Shown: positions 1 through 64,000 of the stretch, piece by piece
Numbering within the stretch: position 1 is the first letter of the stretch
How the letters are laid out: each line of letters opens with the position of its first letter
Assembly: GCF_029227915.1 (NCBI RefSeq)
Contig: NC_079876.1
Location: forward strand, 29,609,828 to 29,673,827
Length of the DNA stretch: 64,000 nt
Direction of reading: 5' to 3'
Origin: Hydractinia symbiolongicarpus
Taxonomy: Eukaryota > Cnidaria > Hydrozoa > Anthoathecata > Hydractiniidae
Made by a program: the position numbers and the translations under genes
The notes under the pieces: model-generated
What the model was told of the DNA's origin: nothing
Seen by the model: the letters and a program-made list of their open reading frames with translations, nothing else
Databases searched by the model: none

Positions 1-285
1 CCATTTGACGACCTTCAGATTTTTCAATAATTTACCCTTTTGATAACGCAACAAAATGAATGAAACTGCAAAATGGGATGGTAATATTTGGGATTTTAAG
101 TTTGAAAGTGTCAGATATGGAAGGCATTATTGCGTATCGTGAAGTAAGGGCTGGTAGAATTATTGGGGCTATTCTATTTCGCCCTGTGGGATAATTCAAC
201 ACAACGTGTCATGTTAACATATTTCCACGGTTAAATCTCTCCAAGCATCCCTCAATCTTCTTATCACACAGGTTAGCCTAGCTAA

Positions 286-368
286 TACCAGAGGTGGGGT
301 TCGCACCCATGCGGACATAAGTCCATTGGAACTTAAGTCCAACGCCTTAACCACTCGACCACCCTGGT
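286..368 (-). pseudogene. tRNA-Leu(UAA)-like copy 1
   Basis: Class C T stem; T55 changed to G, which damages the B box; C11 to U. Likely inactive. Confidence 0.7.
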
Positions 369-739
369 TGAAATTTCAAGTTAATAAGGTTACTTGAACT
401 TGGAAAAAGTACTGGCAATGAATCTTATTATTTTAAATCGCGCAAGAGCATTACCATTTGACGACCTTCAGACTTTTCAATAATTTGCCGTTTTGATAAC
501 TCAACAGATTGACTAGAACGGCAAAAAATTATGGCAATATCTCTGATTTTGAGTTTGAAAGTTTGAGACATGGAAGGAATAATTGCGCATTGTGAATTAA
601 CGGCTGGTACAACTATTGCAGCTGTTCTACCTCTCCAAGTTCGATACTTCGCCACAACGTGTCATGGCAAACACATTTCCACGATTAAAACTCTACAAGC
701 ATCCCTCAATCTTCTTATCACACAGGTTAGCCTAGCTAA

Positions 740-822
740 TACCAGAGGTGGGGTTCGAACCCACGCGGACAATCGTCCATTGGAACTTAAGTCCAACGCC
801 TTAACCACTTGGCCACCCTGGT
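740..822 (-). tRNA. trnL-UAA: tRNA-Leu(UAA) copy 2, class A
   Basis: All stems pair; the only departure is G13 to A in the D arm. Confidence 0.8.
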
Positions 823-1184
823 TGAACATTCAGGTTAATAAGGTTACTTGAATTTGGAAAGGGTACGGGAAATGAACCTTGGTATTCTAAATCGCCCAAG
901 AGCATTACCATTTGACGAAATTCAGATTTTTTTATAATTTTCCATTTTGAAAGCTCAAAAAAATGAATGGAGCTGTAAAAAAGGATGGTAATATTTGGGA
1001 TTTGGAGTTTGAGATATGGAAGGCATTATTGCGCATCGTGAAGTAACGGCTGGTAGAACTATTGGGGCTATTCTTTTTCGCCCTGTGGGATAATTCAACA
1101 CAACGTATCATGTTAACACATTTCTACGGTTAAAACTCGCCAAGCATCCCTCAATCTTCTTATCACACAGGTTAGCCTAGCTAA

Positions 1185-1267
1185 TACCAGAGATGGGGTT
1201 CGAACCCATGCGGACAATAGTCCATTGGAACTTAAGTCCAACGCCTTAACCACTCGGCCACCCTGGT
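1185..1267 (-). tRNA. trnL-UAA: tRNA-Leu(UAA) copy 3, class B
   Basis: Complete class B cloverleaf with A49-U65 and both promoter boxes. Confidence 0.88.
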
Positions 1268-1638
1268 TGAAATTTCAAGTTAATAAGGTTACTTGAACTT
1301 GGAAAAAGTACTGGCAATGAATCTTATTATTTTAAATCGCGCAAGAGCATTACCATTTGACGACCTTCAGACTTTTCAATAATTTGCCGTTTTGATAACT
1401 CAACAGATTGACTAGAACGGCAAAAAATTATGGCAATATCTCTGATTTTGAGTTTGAAAGTTTGAGACATGGAAGGAATAATTGCGCATTGTGAATTAAC
1501 GGCTGGTACAACTATTGCAGCTGTTCTACCTCTCCAAGTTCGATACTTCGCCACAACGTGTCATGGCAAACACATTTCCACGATTAAAACTCTACAAGCA
1601 TCCCTCAATCTACTTATCACACAGGTTAGCCTAGCTAA

Positions 1639-1721
1639 TACCAGAGGTGGGGTTCGAACCCACGCGGACAATCGTCCATTGGAACTTAAGTCCAACGCCT
1701 TAACCACTTGGCCACCCTGGT
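1639..1721 (-). tRNA. trnL-UAA: tRNA-Leu(UAA) copy 4, class A
   Basis: Repeat of copy 2 at +899, also with A13. Confidence 0.8.
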
Positions 1722-2083
1722 TGAACATTCAGGTTAATAAGGTTACTTGAATTTGGAAAGGGTACGGGAAATGAACCTTGGTATTCTAAATCGCCCAAGA
1801 GCATTACCATTTGACGAAATTCAGATTTTTTTATAATTTTCCATTTTGAAAGCTCAAAAAAATGAATGGAGCTGTAAAAAAGGATGGTAATATTTGGGAT
1901 TTGGAGTTTGAGATATGGAAGGCATTATTGCGCATCGTGAAGTAACGGCTGGTAGAACTATTGGGGCTATTCTTTTTCGCCCTGTGGGATAATTCAACAC
2001 AACGTATCATGTTAACACATTTCTACGGTTAAAACTCGCCAAGCATCCCTCAATCTTCTTATCACACAGGTTAGCCTAGCTAA

Positions 2084-2166
2084 TACCAGAGATGGGGTTC
2101 GAACCCATGCGGACAATAGTCCATTGGAACTTAAGTCCAACGCCTTAACCACTCGGCCACCCTGGT
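2084..2166 (-). tRNA. trnL-UAA: tRNA-Leu(UAA) copy 5, class B
   Basis: Complete; repeat of copy 3 at +899. Confidence 0.88.
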
Positions 2167-2537
2167 TGAAATTTCAAGTTAATAAGGTTACTTGAACTTG
2201 GAAAAAGTACTGGCAATGAATCTTATTATTTTAAATCGCGCAAGAGCATTACCATTTGACGACCTTCAGATTTTTCAATAATTTGCCGTTTTGATAACTC
2301 AACAGATTGACTGGAACTGCAAAAAATTATGGCAATATCTGTGATTTTGAGTTTGAAAGTTTGAGACATGGAAGGAATAATTGCGCATTGTGAAATAACG
2401 GCTGGTACAACTATTGCAGCTGTTCTACCTCTCCAAGTTCGATACTTCGCCACAACGTGTCATGGCAAACACATTTCCACGATTAAAACTTTACAAGCAT
2501 CCCTCAATCTTCTTATCACACAGGTTAGCCTAGCTAA

Positions 2538-2620
2538 TACCAGAGGTGGGGTTCGAACACACGCGGACAATCGTCCATTGGAACTTAAGTCCGACGCCTT
2601 AACCACTCGACCACCCTGGT
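2538..2620 (-). pseudogene. tRNA-Leu(UAA)-like copy 6
   Basis: A-prime T stem (U52), a changed anticodon-stem base and C11 to U. Confidence 0.65.
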
Positions 2621-2990
2621 TGAACATTCAGGTTAATAAGGCTACTTGAATTTGGAAAGGGTACGGGAAATGAATCTTGGTATTCTAAATCGCCCAAGAG
2701 CATTACCATTTGACGACCTTCAGAGTTTTTAATAATTTGCCGTTTTGATAACTCAACAAAATGGATGAAACCGCAAGATGGGATGGTAATATCTGGGATT
2801 TTGAGTTGGAAAATTTGAGAAATGGAAGGACTAATTGCGCATTGTAAAATAACGGCTGGTACAACTATTGCAGTCGTTCTATTTCTCCAGGTTCGATACT
2901 TCGCCAGAACGTGTCATGGCAAACACATTTCCACGTTTATATTCTCCAAGCATCCTTCAATAATCTTATCACCGAGATAAACCTAGCTAA

Positions 2991-3073
2991 TACCATAGGT
3001 GGGGTTCGAACCCACGCGGACAATCGTCCATTGGAACATAAGTCCAACGTCTTAACCACTCGGCCACCCTGGT
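2991..3073 (-). pseudogene. tRNA-Leu-like copy 7, anticodon changed to UAU
   Basis: The anticodon loop reads CUUAUGU, so the anticodon is UAU (Ile AUA) on a Leu body. The acceptor 3' strand and G24 are also changed, so it is probably inactive. Confidence 0.7.
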
Positions 3074-3443
3074 TGAATTTTCAGGTTACCAAGGTTACTT
3101 GAACTTGGAAAACGTACTGGCAATGAACCTTAGTATTCAAAATCGCGCAAGAGCACTACCATTTGACGACCTTCAGATTTTTCAATAATTTACCCTTTTG
3201 ATAACGCAACAAAATGAATGGAACTGCAAAATGGGATGGTAATATTTGGGATTTTAAGTTTGAAAGTGTCAGATATGGAAGGCATTATTGCGTATCGTGA
3301 AGTAACGGCTGGTAGAATTATTGGGGCTATTCTATTTCGCCCTGTGGGATAATTCAACACAACGTGTCATGTTAACACATTTCCACGGTTAAATCTCTCC
3401 AAGCATCCCTCAATCTTCTTATCACACAGGTTAGCCTAGCTAA

Positions 3444-3526
3444 TACCAGAGGTGGGGTTCGAACCCATGCGGACAATAGTCCATTGGAACTTAAGTCCAA
3501 CGCCTTAACTACTCGGCCACCCTGGT
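3444..3526 (-). tRNA. tRNA-Leu(UAA)-like copy 8, class C
   Basis: A49/C65 mismatch; one D-loop change. Its trailer has only a T3 run. Confidence 0.6.
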
Positions 3527-3898
3527 TGAAATTTCAAGTTAATAAGGTTACTTGAACTTGAAAAAAGTACTGGCAATGAATCTTATTATTTTAAATCGCG
3601 CAAGAGCATTACCATTTGACGACCTTTAGACTTTTCAATAATTTGCCGTTTTGATAACTCATCAGATTGACTAGAACTGCAAAAAATTATGGCAGTATCT
3701 GTTATTTTGAGTTTGAAAGTTTGAGACATGGAAGGAATAATTGCGCATTGTGAATTAACGGCTGGTACAACTATTTGCAGCTGTTCTACCTCTCCAAGTT
3801 CGATACTTCGCCACAACGTGTCATGGCAAACACATTTCCACGATTAAAACTCTACAAGCATCCCTCAATCTTCTTATCACACAGGTTAGCCTAGCTAA

Positions 3899-3981
3899 TA
3901 CCAGAGGTGGGGTTCGAACCCACGCGAACAATGGTCCATTGGAACTTAAGTCCAACGCCTTAACCACTCGGGGACCCTGGT
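3899..3981 (-). pseudogene. tRNA-Leu(UAA)-like copy 9
   Basis: The 5' strand of the D stem and adjacent A box are altered; the variable stem is also changed. Confidence 0.65.
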
Positions 3982-4351
3982 TGAACATTCAGGTTAATAA
4001 GGTTACTTGAATTTGGAAAGGGTACGGGAAATGAACCTTGGTATTCTAAATCGCCCAAGAGCATTACCATTTGACGACCTTCAGAGTTTTCTATAATTTG
4101 CCGTTTTGATAAGTCAACAAAATGAATGGAACTGCAAGATGGGGTAGTAATATCTGGGATTTTGAGCTTGAAAGTTTGGGATATGGAAGGCATAATTGCG
4201 CATCGTGAAAAAACGGCTTGTAGAATTATTGGAGCTATTCCATTTCACCATGCGCGAAATTTCACCACAAGGTATCATGTTAAGGCATTTCCACGGTTAA
4301 AACTCTTCAAGCGTCCCTCAATCTTCTTATCACACAGGTTAGCCTAGCTAA

Positions 4352-4434
4352 TACCAGAGGTGATGTTCGAACCCACGCGGACAATCGTCCATTGGAACTT
4401 AAGTCCAACGCCTTAACCACTCGGCCACCCTGGT
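4352..4434 (-). pseudogene. tRNA-Leu(UAA)-like copy 10
   Basis: Two changes in the 3' strand of the T stem break pairing and alter the B box. Confidence 0.65.
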
Positions 4435-4804
4435 TGAAATTTCAAGTTAATAAGGTTAGTTGAACTTGGAAAAAGTACTGGCAATGAATCTTATTATTTT
4501 AAATCGCGCAAGAGTATTACCATTTGACGACCTTCAGAGTTTTCAATAATTTGCCGTTTTGATAACTCAACAAAATGAATGGAACTGCAAGATGGGATGG
4601 TAATATCTGGGATTTTGAGCTTGAAAGTTTGGGATATGGAAGGCATAATTGCACATCGTGAAAAAACGGCTTGTAGGATTATTGGTGCTATTCCATTTCG
4701 CCATGTGCGATATTTCACCACAAGGTATCATGTTAAGGCATTTCCACGGTTAAAACTTTCCAAGCGTCCCTCAATCTTCTTATCACACAGGTTAGCCTAG
4801 CTAA

Positions 4805-4887
4805 TACCAGAGGTGGGGTTCGAACCCACTCGGACAATCGTCCATTGGAACTTAAGTCCAACGCCTTAACCACTCGGCCACCCTGGT
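4805..4887 (-). tRNA. trnL-UAA: tRNA-Leu(UAA) copy 11, class A
   Basis: All stems pair; C48 to A between variable arm and T stem. It is followed by a 206-bp short monomer. Confidence 0.75.
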
Positions 4888-5010
4888 TGAAATTTCAGGT
4901 TAATAAGGTTACTTGATCTTGGAAAAAAAGGTATCATGTTAACACATTTCCACGGTTAAAACTCTCCAAGCATCCCTCAATCTTCTTATCACACAGGTTA
5001 GCCTAGCTAA

Positions 5011-5093
5011 TACCAGAGGTGGGGTTCGAACCCATGCGGACAATAGTCCATTGGAACTTAAGTCCAACGCCGTAACCACTCGGCCACCCTGGT
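5011..5093 (-). tRNA. tRNA-Leu(UAA)-like copy 12, class C
   Basis: A49/C65 mismatch and A22 to C. Confidence 0.55.
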
Positions 5094-5464
5094 TGAAATT
5101 TCAAGTTAATAAGGTTACTTGAACTTGGAAAAAGTACTGGCAATGAATCTTATTATTTTAAATCGCGCAAGAGCATTACCATTTGACGACCTTCAGACTT
5201 TTCAATAATTTGCCGTTTTGATAACTCAACAGATTGATTGGAACTGCAAAAAATTGTGGCAATATCTGTGATTTTGAGTTTGAAAGTTTGAGACATGGAA
5301 GGAATAATTGCGCATTGTGAAAAAACGGCTGGTACAACTATTGCAGCTGTTCTACCTCTCCAAGTTCGATACTTCGCCACAACGTGTCATGGCAAACACA
5401 TTTCCACGATTAAAACTCTACAAGCATCCCTCAATCTTCTTATCACACAGGTTAGCCTAGCTAA

Positions 5465-5547
5465 TACAGGAGGTGTGGTTCGAACCCACGCGGACAATCG
5501 TCCATTGGAACTTAAGTCCAACGCCTTAACCACTCGGCCACCCTGGT
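5465..5547 (-). pseudogene. tRNA-Leu(UAA)-like copy 13
   Basis: Rearranged acceptor 3' strand (CTCCTGT) and a broken T stem. Confidence 0.65.
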
Positions 5548-5917
5548 TGAAATTTCAAGTTAATAAGGTTACTTGAACTTGGAAAAAGTACTGGCAATGA
5601 ATCTTATTATTTTAAATCGCGCAAGAGCATTACCGTTTGACGACCTTCAGACTTTTCTATAACTTGCCGTTTTGATAACTCAACAAAATGAAAGGAACTG
5701 CAAAATGGGATTGTAATATTTAGGATTTTGAGTTTGAAAGTGTCAGATATGGAAGGCATTATTGCGTATCGTTAAGTAACGGCTGGTAGAATTATTGGGG
5801 CTATTCTATTTTACCCTGTGGGATAATTCAACACAACGTGTCATGTTAACACATCTCCACGGTTAAAACTCTCCAAGCATCCCTCAATCTTCTTATCACA
5901 CAGGTTAGCCTAGCTAA

Positions 5918-6000
5918 TACAGGAGGTGGGGTTCGAACCCATGCGGACAATAGTCCATTGGAACTTAAGTCCAACGCCGTAACCACTCGGCCACCCTGGT
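5918..6000 (-). pseudogene. tRNA-Leu(UAA)-like copy 14
   Basis: Same acceptor change as copy 13 on a class C body with C22. Confidence 0.65.
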
Positions 6001-6371
6001 TGAAATTTCAAGTTAATAAGGTTACTTGAACTTGGAAAAAGTACTGGCAATGAATCTTATTATTTTAAATCGCGCAAGAGCATTACCATTTGACGACCTT
6101 CAGACTTTTCAATAATTTGCCGTTTTGATAACTCAACAGATTGATTGGAACTGCAAAAAATTGTGGCAATATCTGTGATTTTGAGTTTGAAAGTTTGAGA
6201 CATGGAAGGAATAATTGCGCATTGTGAAAAAACGGCTGGTACAACTATTGCAGCTGTTCTACCTCTCCAAGTTCGATACTTCGCCACAACGTGTCATGGC
6301 AAACACATTTCCACGATTAAAACTCTACAAGCATCCCTCAATCTTCTTATCACACAGGTTAGCCTAGCTAA

Positions 6372-6454
6372 TACAGGAGGTGTGGTTCGAACCCACGCGG
6401 ACAATCGTCCATTGGAACTTAAGTCCAACGCCTTAACCACTCGGCCACCCTGGT
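6372..6454 (-). pseudogene. tRNA-Leu(UAA)-like copy 15
   Basis: Repeat of copy 13 at +907. Confidence 0.65.
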
Positions 6455-6824
6455 TGAAATTTCAAGTTAATAAGGTTACTTGAACTTGGAAAAAGTACTG
6501 GCAATGAATCTTATTATTTTAAATCGCGCAAGAGCATTACCGTTTGACGACCTTCAGACTTTTCTATAACTTGCTGTTTTGATAACTCAACAAAATGAAA
6601 GGAACTGCAAAATGGGATTGTAATATTTAGGATTTTGAGTTTGAAAGTGTCAGATATGGAAGGCATTATTGCGTATCGTTAAGTAACGGCTGGTAGAATT
6701 ATTGGGGCTATTCTATTTTACCCTGTGGGATAATTCAACACAACGTGTCATGTTAACACATCTCCACGGTTAAAACTCTCCAAGCATCCCTCAATCTTCT
6801 TATCACACAGGTTAGCCTAGCTAA

Positions 6825-6907
6825 TACCAGAGGTGGGGTTCGAACCCATGCGGACAATAGTCCATTGGAACTTAAGTCCAACGCCGTAACCACTCGGCCA
6901 CCCTGGT
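6825..6907 (-). tRNA. tRNA-Leu(UAA)-like copy 16, class C
   Basis: A49/C65 mismatch and A22 to C. Confidence 0.55.
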
Positions 6908-7278
6908 TGAAATTTCAAGTTAATAAGGTTACTTGAACTTGGAAAAAGTACTGGCAATGAATCTTATTATTTTAAATCGCGCAAGAGCATTACCATTTGA
7001 CGACCTTCAGACTTTTCTATAACTTGCCGTTTTGATAACTCAACAAAATGAAAGGAACTGCAAAATAGGATTGTAATATTTAGGATTTTGAGTTTGAAAG
7101 TTTGAGACATGGAAGGAATAATTGCGCATTGTGAAATAACGGCTGGTACAACTATTGCAGCTGTTCTACCTCTCCAAGTTCGATACTTCGCCACAACGTG
7201 TCATGGCAAACACATTTCCACGATTAAAACTCTACAAGCATCCCTCAATCTTCTTATCACACAGGTTAGCCTAGCTAG

Positions 7279-7361
7279 TACCAAAGGTGGGGTTCGAACC
7301 CACGCGGACAATAGTCCATTGGAACTTAAGTCCAACGCCTTAACAACTCGGCCACCCTTGT
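7279..7361 (-). pseudogene. tRNA-Leu(UAA)-like copy 17
   Basis: Acceptor changed on both strands without restoring pairing; G18/G19 region of the D loop altered. Confidence 0.6.
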
Positions 7362-7731
7362 TGAAATCTCAAGTTAATAAGGTTACTTGAACTTGGAAAA
7401 AGTACTGGCAATGAATCTTATTATTTTAAATCGCGCAAGAGCATTACCATTTGACGACCTTCAGATTTTTCAATAATTTGCCCTTTTGATAACTCAACAA
7501 AATGAATGGAATTGCAAAATGGGATGGTAATATTTGGGATTTTAAGTTTGAAAGTGTCAGATATGGAAGGCATTATTGCGTGTCGTGAAGTAACGGCTGG
7601 TAGAATTATTGGGGCTATTCTATTTTACCCTGTGGGATAATTCAACACAACGTGTCATGTTAACACATTTCCACGGTTAAAACTCTCCAAGCATCCCTCA
7701 ATCTTCTTATCACACAGGTTAGCCTAGCTAA

Positions 7732-7814
7732 TACCAGAGTTGGGGTTCGAACCCATGCGGACAATAGTCCATTGGAACTTAAGTCCAACGCCTTAACCAC
7801 TCGGCCACCCTGGT
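7732..7814 (-). tRNA. tRNA-Leu(UAA)-like copy 18
   Basis: Class B body but position 65 is A, so A49/A65 do not pair; otherwise intact. Confidence 0.6.
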
Positions 7815-8133
7815 TGAAATTTCAAGTTAATAAGGTTACTTGAACTTGGAAAAAGTACTGGCAATGAATCTTATTATTTTAAATCGCCCAAGAGCATTAC
7901 CATTTGACGACCTTCAGACTTTTCAAATAATTTGCCGTTTTGATAACTCAACAGATTGACTGGAACTGCAAAAAAATATGGTAATATCTCTGATTTTGAG
8001 TTTGAAAGTTTGAGACATGGAAGGAATAATTGCGCATTATGAAACAACGGCTGGTACAACTATTGCAGCTATTCTACCTCTGCAACTTCGATACTTCGCC
8101 ACAACGTGTCATGGCAAACACGTTTCCATGATT

Positions 8134-8137
8134 AAAA
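8134..8137 (-). terminator. Representative Pol III terminator (TTTT)
   Basis: The minus strand has TTTT about 50 nt beyond the tRNA 3' end. The same GAGTTTTAA context recurs after most copies. T4 is the minimal Pol III terminator in many animals; whether it acts efficiently here is inference. Confidence 0.45.
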
Positions 8138-8186
8138 CTCTACAAGCATCCCTCAATCTTCTTATCACACAGGTTAGCCTAGCTAA

Positions 8187-8269
8187 TACCAGAGGTGGGG
8201 TTCGAACCCACGCGGACAATCGTCCATTGGAACTTAAGTCCAACGCCTTAACCACTCGGCCACCCTGGT
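8187..8269 (-). tRNA. trnL-UAA: tRNA-Leu(UAA) copy 19, class A
   Basis: Complete class A cloverleaf; A box TGGCCGAGTGG and B box GGTTCGAACCC intact; T4 in the trailer at 8134-8137. Confidence 0.9.
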
Positions 8270-8392
8270 TGAAATTTCAGGTTAATAAGGTTACTTGATC
8301 TTTGAAAACAACGTATCATGTTAACACATTTCCACGGTTAAAACTCTCCAAGCATCCCTCAATCTTCTTATCACACAGGTTAGCCTAGCTAA

Positions 8393-8475
8393 TACCAGAG
8401 GTGGGGTTCGAATCCATGCGGACAATAGTCCATTGGAACTTAAGTCCAACGGCTTAACCACTCGGCCACCCTGGT
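8393..8475 (-). tRNA. tRNA-Leu(UAA)-like copy 20, class D
   Basis: A53/C61 and A49/C65 mismatches plus G24 to C; sits in a 206-bp short monomer. Confidence 0.5.
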
Positions 8476-8845
8476 TGAAATTTCAAGTTAATAAGGTTAC
8501 TTGAACTTGGAAAAAGTACTGGCAATGAATCTTATTATTTTAAATCGCGCAAGAGCATTACCATTTGACGACCTTCAGATTTTTGAATAATTTGCCCTTT
8601 TGATAACTCAACAAAATGAATGGAACTGCAAAATGGAATGGTAACATTTGGGATTTTGAGTTTAAAAGTTTCAGATATGGAAGGCATTATTACGTATCGT
8701 GAAGTAACGGCTGGTAGAATTATTGGGGCTATTCTTATTTGCCCTGTTGGATAATTCAACACAACGTATCATGTTAACACATTTCCACGGTTAAAACTCG
8801 CCAAGCATCCCTCAATCTTCTTATCACACAGGTTAGCCTAGCTAA

Positions 8846-8927
8846 TACCAGAGATGGGTTCGAACCCATGCGGACAATAGTCCATTGGAACTTAAGTCCA
8901 ACGCCTTAACCACTCGGCCACCCTGGT
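8846..8927 (-). tRNA. tRNA-Leu(UAA)-like copy 21
   Basis: Class B with one base lost from the 3' strand of the T stem. Confidence 0.55.
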
Positions 8928-9298
8928 TGAAATTTCAAGTTAATAAGGTTACTTGAACTTGGAAAAAGTACTGGCAATGAATCTTATTATTTTAAATCGC
9001 GCAAGAGCATTACCATTTGACGACCTTCAGACTTTTCAATAATTTGCCGTTTTGATAACTCAAAAGATTGACTGGAACTGCAAAAAATTGTGGCAGTATC
9101 TGTGATTTTGAATTTGAAAATTTGAGACATGGAAGGAATAATTGCGCATTGTGAAATAACGGCTGGTACAACTATTGCAGCTGTTCTACCTCTCCAAGTT
9201 CGATACTTCGCCACAACGTGTCATGGCAAACACATTTCCACGATTAGAACTGTACAAGCATCCCTCAATTTTCTTATCACACAGGTTAGCCTAGCTAA

Positions 9299-9366
9299 TA
9301 CCAGAGGTGCGGACAATCGTCCATTGGAACTTAAGTCCAACGCCTTAACCACTCGGCCACCCTGGT
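9299..9366 (-). pseudogene. tRNA-Leu(UAA) copy 22, T arm deleted
   Basis: A 15-bp deletion removes most of the T arm and the whole B box; the remainder is class A. Confidence 0.9.
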
Positions 9367-9736
9367 TGAACATTCAGGTTAATAAGGTTACTTGAATTTG
9401 GAAAGGGTACGGGAAATGAACCTTGGTATTCTAAATCGCCCAAGAGCATTACCATTTGACGACCTTCAGATTTTTCAATAATTTGCCCTTTTGATAACTC
9501 AACAAAATGAATGGAACTGCAAAATGGGATGGTAATATTTGGGACTTTAAGTTTGAAAGTGTCAGATATGGAAGGCATTATTACGTATCGTGAAGTAACG
9601 GCTGGTAGAATTATTGGGGCTATTCTATTTTACCCTGTGGGATAATTCAACACAACGTGTCATGTTAACACATTTCCACGGTTAAAACTCTCCAAGCATC
9701 CCTCAATCTTCTTATCACACAGGTTAGCCTAGCTAA

Positions 9737-9819
9737 TACCAGAGGTGGGGTTCGAACCCATGCGGACAATAGTCCATTGGAACTTAAGTCCAACGACTTA
9801 ACCACTCGGCCACCCTGGT
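9737..9819 (-). tRNA. tRNA-Leu(UAA)-like copy 23, class C
   Basis: A49/C65 mismatch and G24 to U. Confidence 0.55.
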
Positions 9820-53773: not shown

Positions 53774-53856
53774 TACCAGAGGTGGGGTTCGAACCCACGC
53801 GAACAATCATCCATTGGAACTTAAGTCCAACGCCTTAACCACTCGGCCACGTTGGT
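53774..53856 (-). tRNA. tRNA-Leu(UAA)-like copy 116, class A
   Basis: Copy 106 at +4036; two acceptor mismatches and variable-stem changes. Confidence 0.45.
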
Positions 53857-54226: not shown

Positions 54227-54308
54227 TACCAGAGGTGGGGTTCGAACCATGCGGACAATAGTCCATTGGAACTTAAGTCCAACGCCTTAACCACTCGGCC
54301 ACCCTGGT
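54227..54308 (-). pseudogene. tRNA-Leu(UAA)-like copy 117
   Basis: Copy 107 at +4036; one-base T-stem deletion. Confidence 0.6.
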
Positions 54309-54679
54309 TGAAATTTAAAGTTAATAAGGTTACTTGAACTTGGAAAAAGTACTGGCAATGAATCTTATTATTTTAAATCGCGCAAGAGCATTACCATTTG
54401 ACGACCTTCAGAGTTTTCAATAATTTGTCGCTTTGATAACCCAACAGATTGACTGGAACTGCAAAAAAGTATGGTAATATCTGTGATTTTGAGTTTGAAA
54501 GTTTGCGACATAGAAGGAATAATTGCGTATTGTGAAATAACGGCTGGTACAACTATTGCAGTTGTTCTACCTCTCCAAGTTCGATACTTCGCCACAACGT
54601 GTCATAACAAACACATTTCCACGATTAAAACTCTACAAGCATCCCTCAATCTTCTCATCACACAGGTAAGCCTAGCTAA

Positions 54680-54762
54680 TACCAGAGGTGGGGTTCGAAC
54701 ACACGCGTACAATCGTCCATTAAAACTTAAGTCCAACGCCTTAACCACTCGGCCACCCTGGT
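54680..54762 (-). pseudogene. tRNA-Leu(UAA)-like copy 118, A-prime
   Basis: Copy 108 at +4036; opened anticodon stem. Confidence 0.6.
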
Positions 54763-55132
54763 TGAACATTCAGGTTAATAAGTTTACTTGAATTTGGAAA
54801 GGGTACGGGAAATGAACCTTGGTATTCTAAATTGCCCAAGAGCATTACCATTTGACGACCTTCAGAGTTTTCAATAATTTGCCGTTTTGATAACTCAACA
54901 AAATGAATGGAACTGCAAGATGGGATGGTAATATCTGGAATTTTGAGCTTGACAGTTTGGGATATGGAAGGCATAATTGCGCATCGTGAAAAAACGGCTT
55001 GTAGAATTATTGGTGCTATTCCATTTCGCCATGTGCGATATTTCACCACAAGGTATCATGTTAAGGCATTTCCACGGTTAAAACTCTCCAAGCGTCCCTC
55101 AATCTTCTTATCACACAGGTTAGCCTAGCTAA

Positions 55133-55215
55133 TACCAGAGGTGGGGTTCGAACCCACGCAGACAATCGTCCACTGGAACTTAAGCCCAACGCCTTAACCA
55201 CTCGGCCACCCTGGT
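55133..55215 (-). tRNA. trnL-UAA: tRNA-Leu(UAA) copy 119, class A variant
   Basis: Copy 109 at +4036 with an added G31-U39 wobble. Confidence 0.7.
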
Positions 55216-55338
55216 TGAAATTTCAGGTTAATAAGGTTACTTGATCTTGGAAAACAAGGTATCATGTTAACACATTTCCACGGTTAAAACTCTCCAAGCA
55301 TCCCTCAATCTTCTTATCACACAGGTTAGCCTAGCTAA

Positions 55339-55421
55339 TACCAGAAGTGGGGTTCGAATCCATGCGGACAATAGTCCATTGGAACTTAAGTCCAACGCCT
55401 TAACCACTCGGCCACCCTGGT
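55339..55421 (-). tRNA. tRNA-Leu(UAA)-like copy 120, class D
   Basis: Copy 110 at +4036. Confidence 0.5.
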
Positions 55422-55791
55422 TGAACATTCAGGTTAATATGGTTACTTGAATTTGGAAAGGGTACGGGAAATGAACCTTTGTATTCTAAATCGCCCAAGA
55501 GCATTACCATTTGACGACCTTCAGACTTTTCTATAATTTGCCGTTTTGTTAACTCAACAAAATGAAAGGAACTGCAAAATGGGATGGTAATATTTAGGAT
55601 TTTGAGTTTGAAAGTTTCAGATATGGAAAGCATTATTGCGTATCGTGAAGTAACGGCTGGTAGAATTATTGGGGCTATTCTATTTTGCCCTGAGGGATAA
55701 TTCAACACAACGTATCATGTTAACACCTTTCCACGGATAAAACTCTCCAAGCATCCCTCAATCTTCTTATCACACAGGTTAGCCTAGCTAA

Positions 55792-55874
55792 TACCAGAGG
55801 TGGAGTTCGAACCCATGCGGACAATAGTCCATTGGAACTTAAGTCCAACGCCTTAACCACTCGGCCACCCTGGT
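55792..55874 (-). tRNA. tRNA-Leu(UAA)-like copy 121, class C
   Basis: Copy 111 at +4036. Confidence 0.5.
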
Positions 55875-56243
55875 TGAAATTTCAAGTTAATAAGGTTACT
55901 TAAACTTGGAAAAAGTACTGGCAATGAATCTTATTATTCTAATCGCGCAAGAGCATTACCATTTGACGAACTTCAGATTTTTTTATAATTTTCCATTTTG
56001 AAAGCTCAACAAAATGAATGGAACTGCAAAATGGGATGGTAATATTTGGAATTTTAAGTTTGAAAGTGTCAGATATGGAAGGCATTATTGCGTATCGTGA
56101 AGTAACGGCTGATAGAATTATTGGGGCTATTCTATTTTACCCTGTGGGATAATTCAACGCAACGTGTCATGTTAACACATTTCCACGGTTAAAACTCTCC
56201 AAGCATCCCTCAATCTTCTTATCACGCAGGTCAGCCTAGCTAA

Positions 56244-56326
56244 TACCAGAGGTGGGGTTCGAACCCATGCGGACAATAGTCCATTGGAACTTAAGTCCAA
56301 CGCCTTAACCACTCGGCCACCCTGGT
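56244..56326 (-). tRNA. tRNA-Leu(UAA)-like copy 122, class C
   Basis: A49/C65 is the only mismatch; the cleanest class C copy. Confidence 0.65.
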
Positions 56327-56696
56327 TGAAATTTCAAGTTAATAAGGTTACTTGAACTTGGAAAAAGTACTGGCAATGAATCTTATTATTTTAAATCGCG
56401 CAAGAGCATTACCATTTGACGACCTTCAGACTTTTCTATAATTTGCCGTTTTGATAACTCAACAAAATGAATGGAACTGCAAAATGGGATTGTAATATTT
56501 GGGATTTTAAGTTTGAAAGAGTCAGATATGGAAGGCATTATTGCGTATCGAGAAGTAACGGCTGGTAGAATTATTGGGGCTATTCTATTTTACCCTGGGG
56601 GATAATTCAACACAACGTGTCATGTTAACACATTTCCACGGTTAAAACTCTACAAGCATCCCTCAATCTTCTTATCACACAGGTTAGCCTAGCTAA

Positions 56697-56779
56697 TACC
56701 AGAGGTGGGGTTCGAACCCACGCGGACAATCGTCCATTGGAACTTAAGTCCAACGCCTTAACCACGCGGCCACCCTGGT
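56697..56779 (-). tRNA. tRNA-Leu(UAA)-like copy 123, class A
   Basis: The invariant A14 is C, which alters the A box; stems otherwise pair. Confidence 0.6.
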
Positions 56780-57150
56780 TGAAATTTCAAGTTAATAAGG
56801 TTACTTGAACTTGGAAAAAGTACTGGCAATGAATCTTATTATTTTAAATCGCGCAAGAGCATTACCATTTGACGACCTTCAGACTTTTCAATAATTTGCC
56901 GTTTTGATAACTCAACAGATTGACTGGAACTGCAAAAAATTGTGGCAATATCTGTGATTTTGAGTTTGAAAGTTTGAGACATGGAAGGAATAATTGCGCA
57001 TTGTGAAATAACGGCTGGTACAACTATTGCAGCTGTTCTACCTCTCCAAGTTCGATACTTCGCCACAACGTGTCATGGCAAACACATTTCCACGATTAAA
57101 ACTCTACAAGCATCCCTCAATCTTCTTATCACACAGGTTAGCCTAGCTAA

Positions 57151-57233
57151 TACCAGAGGTGGGGTTCGAACCAACGCGGACAATCGTCCATTGGAACTTA
57201 AGTCCAACGTCTTAACCACGCGGCCACCCTGGT
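57151..57233 (-). pseudogene. tRNA-Leu(UAA)-like copy 124
   Basis: A14 to C, G24 to A and a T-stem mismatch. Confidence 0.6.
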
Positions 57234-57603
57234 TGAACATTCAGGTTAATAAGGTTACTTGAATTTGGAAAGGGTACGGGAAATGAACCTTGGTATTCTA
57301 AATCATCCAAGAGCATTACCATTTGACGACCTTCAGATTTTTCAATAATTTGCCCTTTTGATAACTCAACAAAATGAATGGAACTGCAAAATGGGATGGT
57401 AATATTTGGGATTTTAAGTTTGAAAGTGTCAGATATGGAAGGCATTATTGCGTATCGAGAAGTAACGGCTGGTAGAATTATTGGGGCTATTCTATTTTAC
57501 CCTGTGGAATAATTCAACACAACGTGTCATGTTAACACATTTCCACGGTTAAAACTCTCCAAGCATCCCTCAATCTTCTTATCACACAGGTTAGCCTAGC
57601 TAA

Positions 57604-57686
57604 TACCAGAGGTGGGGTTCGAACCCATGCGGACAATAGTCCATTGGAACTTAAGTCCAACGCCGTAACCACTCGGCCACCCTGGT
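57604..57686 (-). tRNA. tRNA-Leu(UAA)-like copy 125, class C
   Basis: A49/C65 mismatch and C22. Confidence 0.55.
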
Positions 57687-58055
57687 TGAAATTTCAAGTT
57701 AATAAGGATACTTGAACTTGGAAAAGTACTGGCAATGAATCTTATTATTTTAAATCGCGCAAGAGCATTACTGTTTGACGACCTTCAGACTTTTCTATAA
57801 TTTGCCGTTTTGATAACTCAACAGAATGAAAGGAACTGCAAAATGGGATTGTAATATTTAGGATTTTGAGTTTGAAAGTTTCAGATATGGAAGGCATTAT
57901 TGCGTATCGTGAAGTAACGGCTGGTATAATTATTGGGGCTATTCTATTTTGCCCTGTTGGATAATTCAACACAACGTATCATGTTAACACATTTCCACGG
58001 TTAAAACTCGCCAAGCATCCCTCAATCTTCTTATCACACAGGTTAGCGTAGCTAA

Positions 58056-58138
58056 TACCAGAGGTGGGGTTCGAACCCACGCGGACAATCGTCCATTGGA
58101 ACTTAAGTCCAACGCCTTAACCACTCGGCCACCCTGGT
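58056..58138 (-). tRNA. trnL-UAA: tRNA-Leu(UAA) copy 126, class A
   Basis: Complete, with a class B-lineage trailer. Confidence 0.9.
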
Positions 58139-58509
58139 TGAAATTTCAAGTTAATAAGGTTACTTGAACTTGGAAAAAGTACTGGCAATGAATCTTATAA
58201 TTTTAAATCGCGCAAGAGCAATACCATTTGACGACCTTCAGACTTTTCAATAATTTGCCGTTTTGATAACTCAACAGATTGACTGGAACTGCAAAAAATT
58301 GTGGCAATATCTGTGATTTTGAGTTTGAAAGTTTGAGACATGGAAGGAATAATTGCGCATTGTGAATTAACGGCTGGTACAACTATTGCAGCTGTTCTAC
58401 CTCTCCAACTTCGATACTTCGCCACAACGTGTCATGGCAAACACATTTCCACGATTAAAACTCTACAAGCATCCCTCAATCTTCTTATCACACAGGTTAG
58501 CCTAGCTAA

Positions 58510-58592
58510 TACCAGAGGTGGGGTTCGAACCTTCGCGGACAATCGTCCATTGGAACTTAAGTCCAACGCCTTAACCACTCGGCCACCCTGGT
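58510..58592 (-). pseudogene. tRNA-Leu(UAA)-like copy 127
   Basis: Two adjacent changes in the T stem break pairing. Confidence 0.6.
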
Positions 58593-58962
58593 TGAACATT
58601 CAGGTTAATAAGGTTACTTGAATTTGGAAAGGGTACGGGAAATGAACCTTGGTATTCCAAATCGCCCAAGAGCATTACCATTTGACGACCTTCAGATTTT
58701 TCAATAATTTGCCCTTTTGATAACTCAACAAAATGAATGGAACTGCAAAATGGGATGGTAATATTTGGGATTTTAAGTTTGAAAGTGTCAGATATGGAAG
58801 GCATTATTGCGTATCGAGAAGTAACGGCTGGTAGAATTATTGGGGCTATTCTATTTTACCCTGTGGGATACTTCAACACAACGTGTCATGTTAACACATT
58901 TCCACGGTTAAAACTCTCCAAGCATCCCTCAATCTTCTTATCACACAGGTTAGCCTAGCTAA

Positions 58963-59045
58963 TACCAGAGGTGGGGTTCGAACCCATGCGGAAAATAGTC
59001 CATTGGAAGTTAAGTCCAACGCCGTAACCACTCGGCCACCCTGGT
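58963..59045 (-). tRNA. tRNA-Leu(UAA)-like copy 128, class C
   Basis: A49/C65, C22, variable-stem mismatch and G37 to C next to the anticodon. Confidence 0.45.
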
Positions 59046-59406
59046 TGAAATTTCAAGTTAATAAGGTTACTTGAACTTGGAAAAGTACTGGCAATGAATC
59101 TTATTATTTTAAATCGCGCAAGAGCATTACCGTTTGACGACCTTCAGATTTTTTTATAATTTTCCATTTTGAAAGCTCAACAAAATGAATGGAGCTGTAA
59201 AAAAGGATGGTAATATTTGGGATTTGGAGTTTGAGATATGGAAGGCATTATTGCGCATCGTGAAGTAACGGCTGGTAGAACTATTGGGGCTATTCTTTTT
59301 CGCCCTGTGGGATAATTCAACACAACCTATCATGTTAACACATTTCTACGGTTAAAACTCGCCAAGCATCCCTCAATCTTCTTATCACACAGGTTAGCCT
59401 AGCTAA

Positions 59407-59489
59407 TACCAGAGATGGGGTTTGAACCCATGCGGACAATAGTCCATTGGAACTTAAGTCCAACGCCTTAACCACTCGGCCACCCTGGT
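59407..59489 (-). tRNA. trnL-UAA: tRNA-Leu(UAA) copy 129, class B
   Basis: All stems pair; G57 to A keeps a purine and still fits the B box. Confidence 0.82.
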
Positions 59490-59860
59490 TGAAATTTCAA
59501 GTTAATAAGGTTACTTGAACTTGGAAAAAGTACTGGCAATGAATCTTGATATTTTAAATCGCGCAAGAGCATTACCATTTGACGACCTTCAGATTTTTCA
59601 ATAATTTGCCGTTTTGATAACTCAACAGATTGACTGGAACTGCAAAAAATTATGGCAATATCTGTGATTTTGAGTTTGAAAGTTTGAGACATGGAAGGAA
59701 TAATTGCGCATTGTGTAATAACGGCTGGTACAACTATTGCAGCTGTTCTACCTCTCCAAGTTCGATATTTCGCCACAACGTGTCATGGCAAACACATTTC
59801 CACGATTAAAACTCTACAAGCATCCCTCAATCTTCTTATCACACAGGTTAGCCTAGCTAA

Positions 59861-59943
59861 TACCAGAGGTGGGGTTCGAACACACGCGGACAATCGTCCA
59901 TTGGAACTTAAGTCCAACGCCTTAACCACTCGGCCACCCTGGT
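59861..59943 (-). tRNA. tRNA-Leu(UAA)-like copy 130, A-prime
   Basis: U52/C62 mismatch only. Confidence 0.65.
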
Positions 59944-60313
59944 TGAACATTCAGGTTAATAAGGTTACTTGAATTTGGAAAGGGTACGGGAAATGAACCT
60001 TGGTATTCTAAATCGCCCAAGAGCATTACCATTTGACAACCTTCAGAGTTTGCAATAATTTGCCGCTTTGATAACTCAACAAAATGAATGGAACCGCAAG
60101 ATGGGGTGGTAATATCTGGGATTTTGAGCTTGAAAGTTTGAGATATGGAAGGCATAATTGCGCATCGTGAAATAACGGCTTGTAGAATTATTGGTGCTAT
60201 TCCATTTCGCCATGTGCGATATTTCACCACAAGGTATCATGTTAACGCATTTCCACGGTTAAAACTCTCAAAGCGTCCCTCAATCTTCTTATCACACAGG
60301 TTAGCCTAGCTAA

Positions 60314-60396
60314 TACCAGAGGTGGGGTTCGAACCCACGCGGACAATCGTCCATTGGAACTTAAGTCCAACGCCTTAACCACTCGGCCACCCTGGT
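60314..60396 (-). tRNA. trnL-UAA: tRNA-Leu(UAA) copy 131, class A
   Basis: Complete class A cloverleaf. Confidence 0.9.
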
Positions 60397-60767
60397 TGAA
60401 ATTTCAGGTTAATAAGGTTACTTGATCTTGAAAAAAGTACTGGGAATGAACCTTAGTATTTTAAATCGCGCAAGAGCATTAACATCTGTCGATCTTCTTA
60501 TTTCTTTAATAATTTGCCGTTTTGATAATTCAACAAATTGACTGGAACTGCAAAAAGGGATGGTAATATTTGGGATTTTGAGTTTGAAAATTTGAGAAAT
60601 GGAAGGAATAATTGCGCATTGTGAAATAACGGCTGGTACAACTATTGCAGTTGTTCTATTTCTCCAGGTTCGATACTTCGCCAGAACGTGTCATGGCAAA
60701 CACATTTCCACGTTTAAATTCTCCAAGCATCCTTCAATAATCTTATCACCGAGATAAACCTAGCTAA

Positions 60768-60850
60768 TACCAGAGGTGGGGTTCGAACCCACGCGGACAA
60801 TCGACCATTGGAACTTAAGTCCAACGCCTTAACCACTCGGCCACGCTGGT
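60768..60850 (-). tRNA. tRNA-Leu(UAA)-like copy 132, class A
   Basis: C6/U67 acceptor mismatch and one variable-stem mismatch. Confidence 0.55.
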
Positions 60851-61220
60851 TGAATTTTCAGGTTACCAAGGTTACTTGAACTTGGAAAACGTACTGGCAA
60901 TAAACCTTAGTATTCGAAATCGCGCAAGAGCACTACCGTTTGACGACCTTCAGATTTTTCAATAATTTACCCATTTGATAACGCAACAAAATGAATGGAA
61001 CTGCAAAATGGGATGGTAATATTTGGGATTATAGGTTTGAAAGTGTCAGATATGGAAGGCTTTATTGCGTATCGTGAAGTAATGGCTGGTAGAATTATTG
61101 GGGCTATTCTATTTCGCCCTGTGGGATAATTCAACACAACGTGTCATGTTAACACATTTCCACGGTTAAATCTCTCCAAGCATCCCTCAATATTCTTATC
61201 ACACAGGTTAGCCTAGCTAA

Positions 61221-61302
61221 TACCAGAGATGGGGTTCGAACCATGCGGACAATAGTCCATTGAAACTTAAGTCCAACGCCTTAACCACTCGGCCACCCTG
61301 GT
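61221..61302 (-). pseudogene. tRNA-Leu(UAA)-like copy 133
   Basis: One base lost in the T stem, as copy 102, but position 65 is U as in class B. Confidence 0.6.
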
Positions 61303-61673
61303 TGAAATTTAAAGTTAATAAGGTTACTTGATCTTGGAAAAAGTACTGGCAATGAATCTTATTATTTTAAATCGCGCAAGAGCATTAACATCTGTCGATC
61401 TTCAGAGTTTTCAATAATTTGCCGCTTTGATAACCCAACAGATTGACTGGAACTGCAAAAAAGTATGGTAATATCTGTGATTTTGAGTTTGAAAGTTTGC
61501 GACATAGAAGGAATAATTGCGCATTGTGAAATAACGGCTGGTACAACAATTGCAGTTGTTCTACCTCTCCAAGTTCGATACTTCGCCACAACGTGTCATA
61601 ACAAACACATTTCCACGATTAAAACTCTACAAGCATCCCTCAATCTTCCTATCACACAGGTTAGCATAGCTAA

Positions 61674-61756
61674 TACCAGAGGTGGGGTTCGAACACACGC
61701 GGACAATCGTCCATTGGAACTTAAGTCCAACGCCTTAACCACTCGGCCACCCTGGT
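61674..61756 (-). tRNA. tRNA-Leu(UAA)-like copy 134, A-prime
   Basis: U52/C62 mismatch only; anticodon stem intact, unlike its relatives 103, 108 and 118. Confidence 0.65.
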
Positions 61757-62126
61757 TGAACATTCAGGTTAATAAGGTTACTTGAATTTGGAAAGGGTAC
61801 GGGAAATGAACCTTGGTATTCTAAATCGCCCAAGAGCATTACCATTTGACGACCGTCAGAGTTTTCAATAATTTGCCGTTTTGATAACTCAACAAAATGA
61901 ATGGAACTGCAAGATGGGATGGTAATATCTGGAATTTTGAGCTTGACAGTTTGGGATATGGAAGGCATAATTGCGCATCGTGAAAAAACGGCTTGTAGAA
62001 TTATTGGTGCTATTCCATTTCGCCATGTGCGATATTTCACCACAAGGTATCATGTTAAGGCATTTCCACGGTTAAAACTCTCCAAGCGTCCCTCAATCTT
62101 CTTATCACACAGGTTAGCCTAGCTAA

Positions 62127-62209
62127 TACCAGAGGTGGGGTTCGAACCCACGCAGACAATCGTCCACTGGAACTTAAGTCCAACGCCTTAACCACTCGGC
62201 CAACCTGGT
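62127..62209 (-). tRNA. tRNA-Leu(UAA)-like copy 135, class A variant
   Basis: As copy 104 plus an acceptor-stem change (G7 to U). Confidence 0.6.
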
Positions 62210-62332
62210 TAAAATTTCAGGTTAATAAGGTTACTTGATCTTGGAAAACAAGGTATCATGTTAACACATTTCCACGGTTAAAACTCTCCAAGCATCCCTC
62301 AATCTCCTTATCACACAGGTTAGCCTAGCTAA

Positions 62333-62415
62333 TACCAGAAGTGGGGTTCGAATCCATGCGGACAATAGTCCATTGGAACTTAAGTCCAACGGCTTAACCA
62401 CTCGGCCACCCTGGT
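62333..62415 (-). tRNA. tRNA-Leu(UAA)-like copy 136, class D
   Basis: C24, two T-stem mismatches and acceptor wobbles; short monomer. Confidence 0.45.
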
Positions 62416-62785
62416 TGAAATTTTAAGTTAATAAAGTTACTTGAACTTGGAAAAAGTACTGGCAATGAATCTTATTATTTTAAATCGCGCAAGAGCATTA
62501 CCATTTGACGACCTTCAGATTTTTGAATAATTTGCCCTTTTGATAACTCAACAAAATGAAAGGAACTGCAAAATGGAATGGTAATATGTGGGATTTTCAG
62601 TTTGAAAGTTTCAGATATGGAAGGCATTATTGCGTATGGTGAAGTAACGGCTGGTAGAATTATTGGGGCTATTGTATTTTGCCCTGTTGGATAATTCAAC
62701 ACAACGTATCATGTTAACACATTTCCACGGTTAAAACTCGCCAAGCATCCCTCAATCTTCTTATCACACAGGTTAGCCTAGCTAA

Positions 62786-62868
62786 TACCAGAGATGGGGT
62801 TCGAACCCATGCTGACAATAGTCCTTTGGAACTTAAGTCCAACGCCTTAACCACTCGGCCACTCTGGT
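62786..62868 (-). tRNA. trnL-UAA: tRNA-Leu(UAA) copy 137, class B, acceptor fully Watson-Crick
   Basis: G6 to A turns the usual G6-U67 wobble into A-U; the outer variable-stem pair is lost. Confidence 0.75.
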
Positions 62869-63213
62869 TGAAAGTTCAAGTTAATAAGGTTACTTGAACT
62901 TGGAAAAAGTACTGGCAATGAATCTTATTATTTTAAATCGCGGAAGAGCGTAACCATTTGACGACCTTCAGATTTTTTAATAATTTTCCATTTTGAAAGC
63001 TGAACAAAATGAATGGAGCTGTAAAAAGGATGGTAATATTTGGGATTTGGAGTTTGAATGTTTGAGATATGGAAGGCATTAATGCACATCGTGAAGTAAC
63101 AGCTGGTAGAACTATTGGGGCTATTCTATTTCGCCCTGTGGGATAATTCAACACAACGTTAAAACTCTCCAAGCATCCCTCAATCTTCTTATCACACAGG
63201 TTAGCCTAGCTAA

Positions 63214-63296
63214 TACCAGAAGTGGGGTTCGAATCCATGCGGACAATAGTCCATTGGAACTTAAGTCCAACGGCTTAACCACTCGGCCACCCTGGT
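63214..63296 (-). tRNA. tRNA-Leu(UAA)-like copy 138, class D
   Basis: Copy 136 at +881; trailer shortened by a 25-bp deletion. Confidence 0.45.
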
Positions 63297-63666
63297 TGAA
63301 ATTTTAAGTTAATAAAGTTACTTGAACTTGGAAAAAGTACTGGCAATGAATCTTATTATTTTAAATCGCGCAAGAGCATTACCATTTGACGACCTTCAGA
63401 TTTTTGAATAATTTGCCCTTTTGATAACTCAACAAAATGAAAGGAACTGCAAAATGGAATGGTAATATGTGGGATTTTCAGTTTGAAAGTTTCAGATATG
63501 GAAGGCATTATTGCGTATGGTGAAGTAACGGCTGGTAGAATTATTGGGGCTATTGTATTTTGCCCTGTTGGATAATTCAACACAACGTATCATGTTAACA
63601 CATTTCCACGGTTAAAACTCGCCAAGCATCCCTCAATCTTCTTATCACACAGGTTAGCCTAGCTAA

Positions 63667-63749
63667 TACCAGAGATGGGGTTCGAACCCATGCTGACAAT
63701 AGTCCTTTGGAACTTAAGTCCAACGTCTTAACCACTCGGCCACTCTGGT
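63667..63749 (-). tRNA. tRNA-Leu(UAA)-like copy 139, class B
   Basis: Copy 137 at +881 with G24 to A, a D-stem mismatch. Confidence 0.6.
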
Positions 63750-64000
63750 TGAAAGTTCAAGTTAATAAGGTTACTTGAACTTGGAAAAAGTACTGGCAAT
63801 GAATCTTATTATTTTAAATCGCGGAAGAGCGTAACCATTTGACGACCTTCAGATTTTTTAATAATTTTCCATTTTGAAAGCTGAACAAAATGAATGGAGC
63901 TGTAAAAAGGATGGTAATATTTGGGATTTGGAGTTTGAATGTTTGAGATATGGAAGGCATTAATGCACATCGTGAAGTAACGGCTGGTAGAACTATTGGG

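Follow-up and report, generated by a model that had tools for sequence, protein, structure and literature searches.

Organization of the array

The window, that is the whole stretch of 64,000 nt that was analysed, is occupied by tandem tRNA-Leu(UAA) units and a retrotransposon inserted between them (Table 1). Using a single copy as query, blastn retrieved 139 matches on the minus strand of the window and none on the plus strand. ARAGORN called 136 tRNA genes, 135 of them Leu(taa) and one read as Ile(tat), and the Rfam tRNA profile gave 138 matches above its gathering score. As tandem-array scores from TRF reach 13,200 in the window, the array is not a product of chance; it is real. Among the 138 copy spacings determined by blastn, 107 measure 453 or 454 bp and 14 measure 206 bp, and one extends to 5,064 bp because the retrotransposon interrupts the array. 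An earlier note on this DNA had described 139 copies in a single orientation at steps of about 453 bp, which agrees with these counts. It had also stated that no other gene is present, and this is wrong because a Ty1/copia element lies within the array.

The array reaches far past the window on both sides. Its main block spans C2:29,285,693-29,723,217 in a genome of 480.9 Mb (480,894,487 bases, 76 contigs). Position C2:29,723,217 was rejected as the right end of the array, with 10 more core matches at 29,782,501-29,836,938, and represents the end of the main block only. A contiguous 293.8 kb of the array holds 604 tRNA-Leu(UAA) copies, none of them on the plus strand, and by extrapolation the whole array may comprise roughly 900 copies. 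Each unit carries one tRNA.

The two LTRs of the Ty1/copia element show 2 differences between them. For its reverse transcriptase ORF, Paramuricea clavata was the sole organism-named match among 120 listed of 7,422 matches. A 3.4-kb LINE-like insertion marks a unit that occurs five times in the 293.8 kb, with the occurrences being 99.1-99.8% identical and spread over 181 kb. Transposon-like ORFs flank the array on both sides.

Table 1 Features of the 64,000-nt window (all on the minus strand).
Feature	Position	Strand	Evidence and remarks
Tandem tRNA-Leu(UAA) units, about 453 bp each	1..20035	-	ARAGORN, Rfam, blastn; array extends past left window edge
Short unit of 206 bp, example	4805..5010	-	14 in window, common deletion breakpoint
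Ty1/copia LTR retrotransposon inside array	20036..24641	-	33-37 bp 3' of tRNA at 24679-24761; target duplication CCCTC
LTR, 278 bp	20036..20313	-	One of a pair with 2 differences
ORF of 471 aa, reverse transcriptase RVT_2	20321..21736	-	Pfam match; overlaps 831-aa ORF
ORF of 831 aa, copia Gag and integrase domains	21696..24191	-	Pfam matches
LTR, 278 bp	24364..24641	-	Other of the pair
Tandem tRNA-Leu(UAA) units	24642..64000	-	ARAGORN, Rfam, blastn; array extends past right window edge
Top-scoring tRNA-Leu(UAA) copy, taken as query	62786..62868	-	Rfam 64.1 bits

Unit variants and homogenisation

Several types of unit variants are found at more than one place. The 206-bp deletion unit occupies its 14 places in the window with one shared deletion breakpoint, and there are 12 double units in which a tRNA is mostly missing, as seen in the 10 of them that were displayed. 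The nearest relative of a unit is a median of 9 units away, compared with 162 for random pairs. Two types of unit can be distinguished in the window, with 70 switches between them among 122 units versus a shuffle mean of 57.3 (70 switches are reached in 80 of 10,000 shuffles). A dimeric order by alternation of the two types is thus present in the window, but it is loose.

Duplication relations along the array and local homogenisation are those of satellites and of concerted evolution, and the array behaves like a satellite, with marks of unequal exchange, the loose dimeric order and stretches of decayed copies. Unequal exchange together with segmental duplication is the probable cause, judging from the shared insertions and deletions that are spread along the array.

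Constraint on the tRNA

Diversity is lower in the tRNA than in the spacer, both among 122 window units (0.047 versus 0.124) and among 545 units (0.075 versus 0.145). In the latter set, private mutations (singletons) occur at the same rate per site in the tRNA (0.410) and in the spacer (0.408). Widespread variants, defined as those present in at least 30 of the 545 units, number 0.120 per site in the tRNA versus 0.357 in the spacer (Fisher p=0.004; this and the other p-values are optimistic as the units share ancestry). In the window alone, the contrast between tRNA and spacer for singletons versus variants in at least 4 units has p=6.6e-5. Scanning the circular unit in windows of 83 nt places the tRNA interval among the lowest for widespread variants.

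Variability amounts to 0.020 in the anticodon arm and 0.021 in the A box versus 0.100 in the spacer (arm versus spacer, p=0.002). All non-box tRNA positions pooled do not differ significantly from the spacer (0.048 versus 0.100, p=0.15), and neither do box and non-box positions of the tRNA from each other (p=0.17). These patterns suggest that the tRNA part, unlike the spacer, is kept in working shape. This constraint exceeds that of the spacer in both the A box and the anticodon arm and therefore points to the tRNA product.

A constraint on the trailer, the 53 nt from the tRNA to T4, was considered from the window units (p=0.0067, variants in 1-3 versus at least 10 units) and was dropped with the 545 units, where widespread variants number 0.321 per site in the trailer versus 0.357 in the spacer (p=1.0). 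A small hairpin at the start of the trailer shows no compensatory change. CpG decay, which would indicate silencing, was considered and dropped: the window units show no excess of CpG transitions, although this is weak evidence.

Intact copies and Pol III signals

Copies that preserve each of the 24 stem pairs and each of the 14 invariant nucleotides are here called fully intact. The cloverleaf expected of a functional tRNA-Leu(UAA) gene, with its stems, invariants and the anticodon UAA, is found in 43 of the 139 window copies and in 125 of the 604 copies in the 293.8 kb, and not in the remainder. All stem pairs and both promoter boxes are kept by 44 of the 139 window copies, so the figure of 34 intact copies given previously was close. 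Some 20-kb stretches are nearly devoid of intact copies (1/33, 4/33 and 0/44 on the left, 3/36 and 1/38 further right).

The anticodon TAA is retained in 533 of the 545 units, the A box pattern in 506 and a strict B box in 358. An A-C mismatch in the T stem, at 59:75, is found in 147 of these units, and of the 13 tRNA variants that are common in the window, 8 disrupt a pair. Most of the 603 copies examined lack a nearby Pol III terminator: only 32 have a T4 within 25 nt of the tRNA 3' end, the first T4 is at +49 in 374 copies, and in 171 there is no T4 within 100 nt.

Other small-RNA loci in the genome

Several arrays of small-RNA genes exist in this cnidarian genome, which most likely belongs to the colonial hydroid Hydractinia, and the Leu(UAA) array is one of them. 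A second tRNA array, of which one copy was read and codes for tRNA-Lys(UUU), is located on C3, and U2 snRNA arrays with steps of mostly about 5.85 kb are located on C9. Outside the arrays, tRNA-Leu(UAA) is also encoded by at least two stand-alone genes, each soon followed by a T run, and thus the array is not the sole possible source of this tRNA. One of these genes, on C11, has a T5 at +9. The array consensus differs from this gene at three sites, two of which represent a pair-preserving change at 7:76, with G7:C76 being typical for the array.

Exact-match scans of prokaryotic genomes and viral contigs with tRNA-plus-trailer patterns gave no match. When an ORF spanning spacer and antisense tRNA was used as protein query, 36 matches were obtained; in the 17 of these that were read, the clear common part is the antisense tRNA-Leu. 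One match, P0124, aligned to this ORF over 84% of the query with 45% identity.

Comparison with known tRNA arrays

As far as the accessible parts of the cited papers go, tRNA arrays of this kind are already known in Hydractinia, where evenly spaced arrays for all 20 amino acids and U2 arrays have been described (PMC11067881). The Leu(UAA) array, the second tRNA array and the U2 arrays resemble them. The single-isoacceptor makeup had been considered unusual, and this view is weakened because the same genome has a second tRNA array and because arrays for all 20 amino acids are published. The biological significance of these ncRNA arrays was called unclear (PMC11067881). In the literature searched, including the accessible part of that paper, we found no analysis of constraint or mutation spectrum for Hydractinia arrays; what is new here is the contrast in mutation pattern between tRNA and spacer.

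Nematostella and teleosts have tDNA clusters of fifty and more, and across the genomes surveyed most neighbouring tDNAs share one orientation, as they do here; in Nematostella and zebrafish, however, adjacent pairs mostly mix amino acids (PMC2888827), whereas our array has a single isoacceptor. The maize satellite tRNASAT_ZM is likewise tandem, forming a 92-kb array on one chromosome arm, but in a plant (PMC10335936). The SYY, Pro and Cys tRNA clusters of Arabidopsis are similar in being tandem, in having variants with mispaired stems and in copy-number variation, and one of them has a unit of about 420 bp; they differ in having far fewer units (27 for SYY, 4-6 for Cys) and are described as largely silenced and methylated (PMC12308677, PMC10701932). 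The human tRNA VNTR at 1q23.3 is also a tandem repeat of variable number, but with 7.3-kb units in 9-43 copies that are bound by CTCF (PMC4041453). In Entamoeba, tRNA genes also form tandem arrays, but nearly all of them are arrayed, and a unit comprises up to 5 tRNA genes separated by short tandem repeats (PMC2652664), while the units described here have one tRNA each.

Interpretation

We consider it rather likely that the locus is a concertedly evolving array of small-RNA genes under weak purifying selection on the pool, with an intact minority in use. Head-to-tail amplification of a tRNA-Leu(UAA) gene together with some 370 bp of flank has produced several hundred copies. New mutations fall about evenly on the unit, but variants of the tRNA seldom become widespread, as the contrast in frequency spectra shows. 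Because of this rare spreading, the array may evolve like rDNA or 5S DNA. The intact one fifth or so would be transcribed by Pol III, supplementing tRNA-Leu(UAA) beside the stand-alone genes, and the remaining copies would mostly be decayed passengers. The low proportion of intact copies, the distant or missing terminators and the amplified damage (the 59:75 mismatch and the double units) were counted against this explanation. A more specific version, which we put forward tentatively, is an rDNA-like pool of several hundred copies under selection, in which any one copy is free to mutate but harmful variants of the tRNA do not become widespread; this pool would supply a distinct G7:C76 isodecoder, often via the unusually distant terminator at +49.

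The same array might be a satellite which captured a tRNA gene that is now a passenger, so that amplification is purely recombinational and the copies are unused. With 479 of the 604 copies not fully intact, amplified double units lacking a tRNA, 20-kb stretches almost without intact copies, poor terminators and transposon-like ORFs on both flanks, this alternative has some appeal, but we regard it as unlikely: at equal private mutation, widespread variants are threefold scarcer in the tRNA, including the anticodon arm, which speaks for a gene family in concerted evolution under weak selection rather than a passenger satellite. The earlier note had proposed a dosage locus, a Pol III-dense chromatin domain or a satellite with a captured tRNA gene. 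The satellite-like behaviour is borne out, while the constraint on the tRNA points to its product. Its argument that the persistence of intact copies implies selection or homogenisation is supported in both parts, selection from the rarity of widespread tRNA variants and homogenisation from units with shared insertions and close relatives nearby.

It is improbable that the array acts as a chromatin or boundary element, for which arrayed TFIIIC sites would matter and not the tRNA product. The A box pattern is widely kept, and a boundary role has been implicated for the human 1q23.3 repeat (PMC4041453), but the strict B box is kept far less often and the anticodon arm, which belongs to neither box, is conserved to the same degree as the A box. 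This latter argument is not decisive, given the lack of a significant difference between box and non-box positions. An expansion of a few true copies during assembly is very improbable. Tandem repeats are error-prone to assemble, the exact copy number is uncertain and 16 of the 122 full window units exactly duplicate another one. However, 472 of the 545 units are distinct, which argues against a simple assembly expansion; the 8 self-matches of at least 1.3 kb in the window are only 97.2-98.7% identical, none being identical, and tRNA arrays are also present in the independently made H. echinata assembly (PMC11067881).

Since the consensus of the array and the stand-alone gene carry different bases at readable sites, tRNA sequencing could directly show any use of the array. 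With its hundreds of diverged copies, a tRNA array of this kind allows us to ask from sequence alone whether selection acts at the level of the pool, and here it seems to do so.

Extent of the array

The tandem array of tRNA-Leu(UAA) genes is real and very large. It fills nearly the entire window, which lies at C2:29,609,828-29,673,827. The earlier note's 139 copies on a single strand were recovered exactly when the window was searched by blastn with one copy (139 minus-strand matches, 0 on the plus strand). Rfam matched tRNAs 138 times, and ARAGORN predicted 136 tRNA genes, all on the minus strand, of which 135 are Leu(taa). The 138 copy spacings in the window include 71 of 453 bp, 36 of 454 bp, 14 of 206 bp and one of 5,064 bp.

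A contiguous stretch of 293,827 bases containing the window (C2:29,380,001-29,673,827) holds 604 copies, exclusively on the minus strand, a count that leaves out C2:29,299,232-29,380,000 and C2:29,673,828-29,715,280. Here ARAGORN predicted 584 genes, 570 of them Leu(taa). In the whole genome (480,894,487 bases, 76 contigs), a 29-base tRNA core has 474 matches on one strand and 2 on the opposite strand; stand-alone tRNA-Leu(UAA) genes on contigs C11 and C12 take one match of each strand. The main block spans C2:29,285,693 to 29,723,217, and 10 additional core matches lie past it (C2:29,782,501-29,836,938). Scaling from 320 core matches per 604 copies in the larger stretch to 474 matches gives a rough figure of about 895 copies.

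Coordinates of elements, genes and arrays
Feature	Location	Strand	Remarks
Ty1/copia element	window 20036-24641		within the 5,064-bp step; LTRs, target duplication, domains
3.4-kb LINE-like insertion	L012, about 606-4044		four relatives in L012-L013, L013, L024, L030
Stand-alone tRNA-Leu(UAA) gene	C11, L041:127-209	minus	
Stand-alone tRNA-Leu(UAA) gene	C12, L043:26-110	plus	
C3 tRNA array	C3:8380323-8446286, plus other C3 clusters		step about 1.3 kb

Mode of growth

Two unit types tend to alternate: mean unit divergence in the window is 0.124 at lag 1 versus 0.080 at lag 2, and the alternation is weaker in the larger stretch (0.126 versus 0.108). The 206-bp deletion unit occurs at 14 places in the window with a single common breakpoint, while a fifteenth short unit (223 bp) has a breakpoint of its own. 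A unit carrying a 3.4-kb insertion occurs five times across 181 kb with 99.1-99.8% identity, and the closest relative of a unit is at a median distance of 9 units, compared to 162 for random pairs. Alternation, recurrent deletion and insertion units and nearby relatives are marks of array growth by unequal exchange and segmental duplication. Of the 122 full units in the window, 16 are exact duplicates of another unit. The eight long self-matches of the window are only 97.2-98.7% identical and 472 of 545 full units are distinct, which speaks against an assembly artefact.

Insertions and flanks

The Ty1/copia element has Gag, integrase and reverse-transcriptase domains, two LTRs of 278 bp with 2 differences between them, and a CCCTC target duplication. 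Among the 120 matches listed of 7,422 for its polymerase, the only organism-named one is from the octocoral Paramuricea clavata. Judging from its ORFs, we read the 3.4-kb insertion as LINE-like. Two of the three large insertions in the 293.8-kb stretch fall in the 53-nt trailer that follows the tRNA; counted from the 3′ end of the tRNA, the copia element sits at +33 to +37 and the LINE-like insertion at about +24. With three insertions in all, this perhaps reflects tRNA-directed integration.

To the right of the main block, beyond C2:29,723,217, ORFs with GDSL and endonuclease domains are LINE-like by our reading, and the ORF listing indicates a long TTA/AAT-type trinucleotide repeat close to the block's right end (L037:1503-2024). 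The left flank (L036:1-9000) carries transposon-like ORFs; four were compared with Pfam, which matched a hAT dimerisation domain in one and nothing in the other three.

Decay and constraint of the tRNA copies

An intact subset exists as the earlier note held: the note counted 34 copies, and 43 of the 139 in the window retain all 24 stem pairs and 14 invariant nucleotides. The larger stretch has 125 fully intact copies among its 604, ranging from 0/44 to 18/44 per 20 kb; they are scarce at the left (1/33, 4/33, 0/44) and also further right (3/36, 1/38). Of 603 copies, 32 carry a run of four T within 25 nt of the tRNA end; 374 copies have their first such run at +49, and 171 lack one over the first 100 nt. 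Behind the C11 gene, T5 follows at +9 and T7 at +15, and the C12 gene, whose outer acceptor stem differs, also has T runs close to its 3′ end. The scarcity of intact copies and the distant or missing terminators count against function. So does the fact that damaged tRNA variants were amplified along with the array: 8 of 13 common tRNA variants of the window break pairs, an A-C pair at 59:75 is carried by 147 of 545 units, and in 12 double units (10 of the 12 shown) most of a tRNA is missing. Compared with the C11 gene, the array consensus has three changed positions, and two of these changes together preserve pair 7:76 (A-T to G-C).

Variation was compared in the 545 full units, of 400-520 bp, among the 604 copies. 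The tRNA has a nucleotide diversity of 0.075, the spacer one of 0.145. Once-seen variants are equally frequent per site (0.410 and 0.408), but variants in at least 30 units are rarer in the tRNA (0.120 versus 0.357; Fisher p=0.004, this and the following p-values overstating the independence of units because these share ancestry). The contrast persists when variants in more than 5 units count as widespread (p=0.016) and, for variants seen once versus in at least 4 units, among the 122 full units of the window (p=6.6e-5). The tRNA interval has 10 widespread variants; the median of all circular 83-nt windows is 27, and the minimum of 9 belongs to windows starting 3-4 nt before it. The anticodon arm varies as little as the A box (0.020 and 0.021), against 0.100 in the spacer (p=0.002 for the arm); pooled non-box tRNA positions are lower than spacer without significance (0.048, p=0.15), the variable arm and outer T-stem being their most variable positions.

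Relation to published arrays

The published work on the Hydractinia genome (PMC11067881) describes arrays in which tens to hundreds of copies stand at even intervals, separated by spacers of this sort, for rRNAs, U1, U2, U5, U6, U3 and tRNAs for all 20 amino acids; among the other cnidarians compared, it found RNA arrays only in Nematostella (5S, tRNA, U5). The genome studied here resembles this description in its Leu(UAA) array, one or more further tRNA arrays, including that on C3 (one copy read as tRNA-Lys(UUU)), and U2 snRNA tandem arrays on C9 (C9:7108744-7293531, where most steps are near 5.85 kb and the strand changes in places). Further tRNA arrays are likely, since the candidates scored, 63 out of 49,105 loose ones, all came from C3. 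Arrays of the same kind as the Leu(UAA) array are already published, probably for the same species. What is new here is that its tRNA part, as judged from unit variation, appears to resist the spread of variants. Because of this resistance, we lean towards the array being used as a source of tRNA, which we regard as its candidate function.
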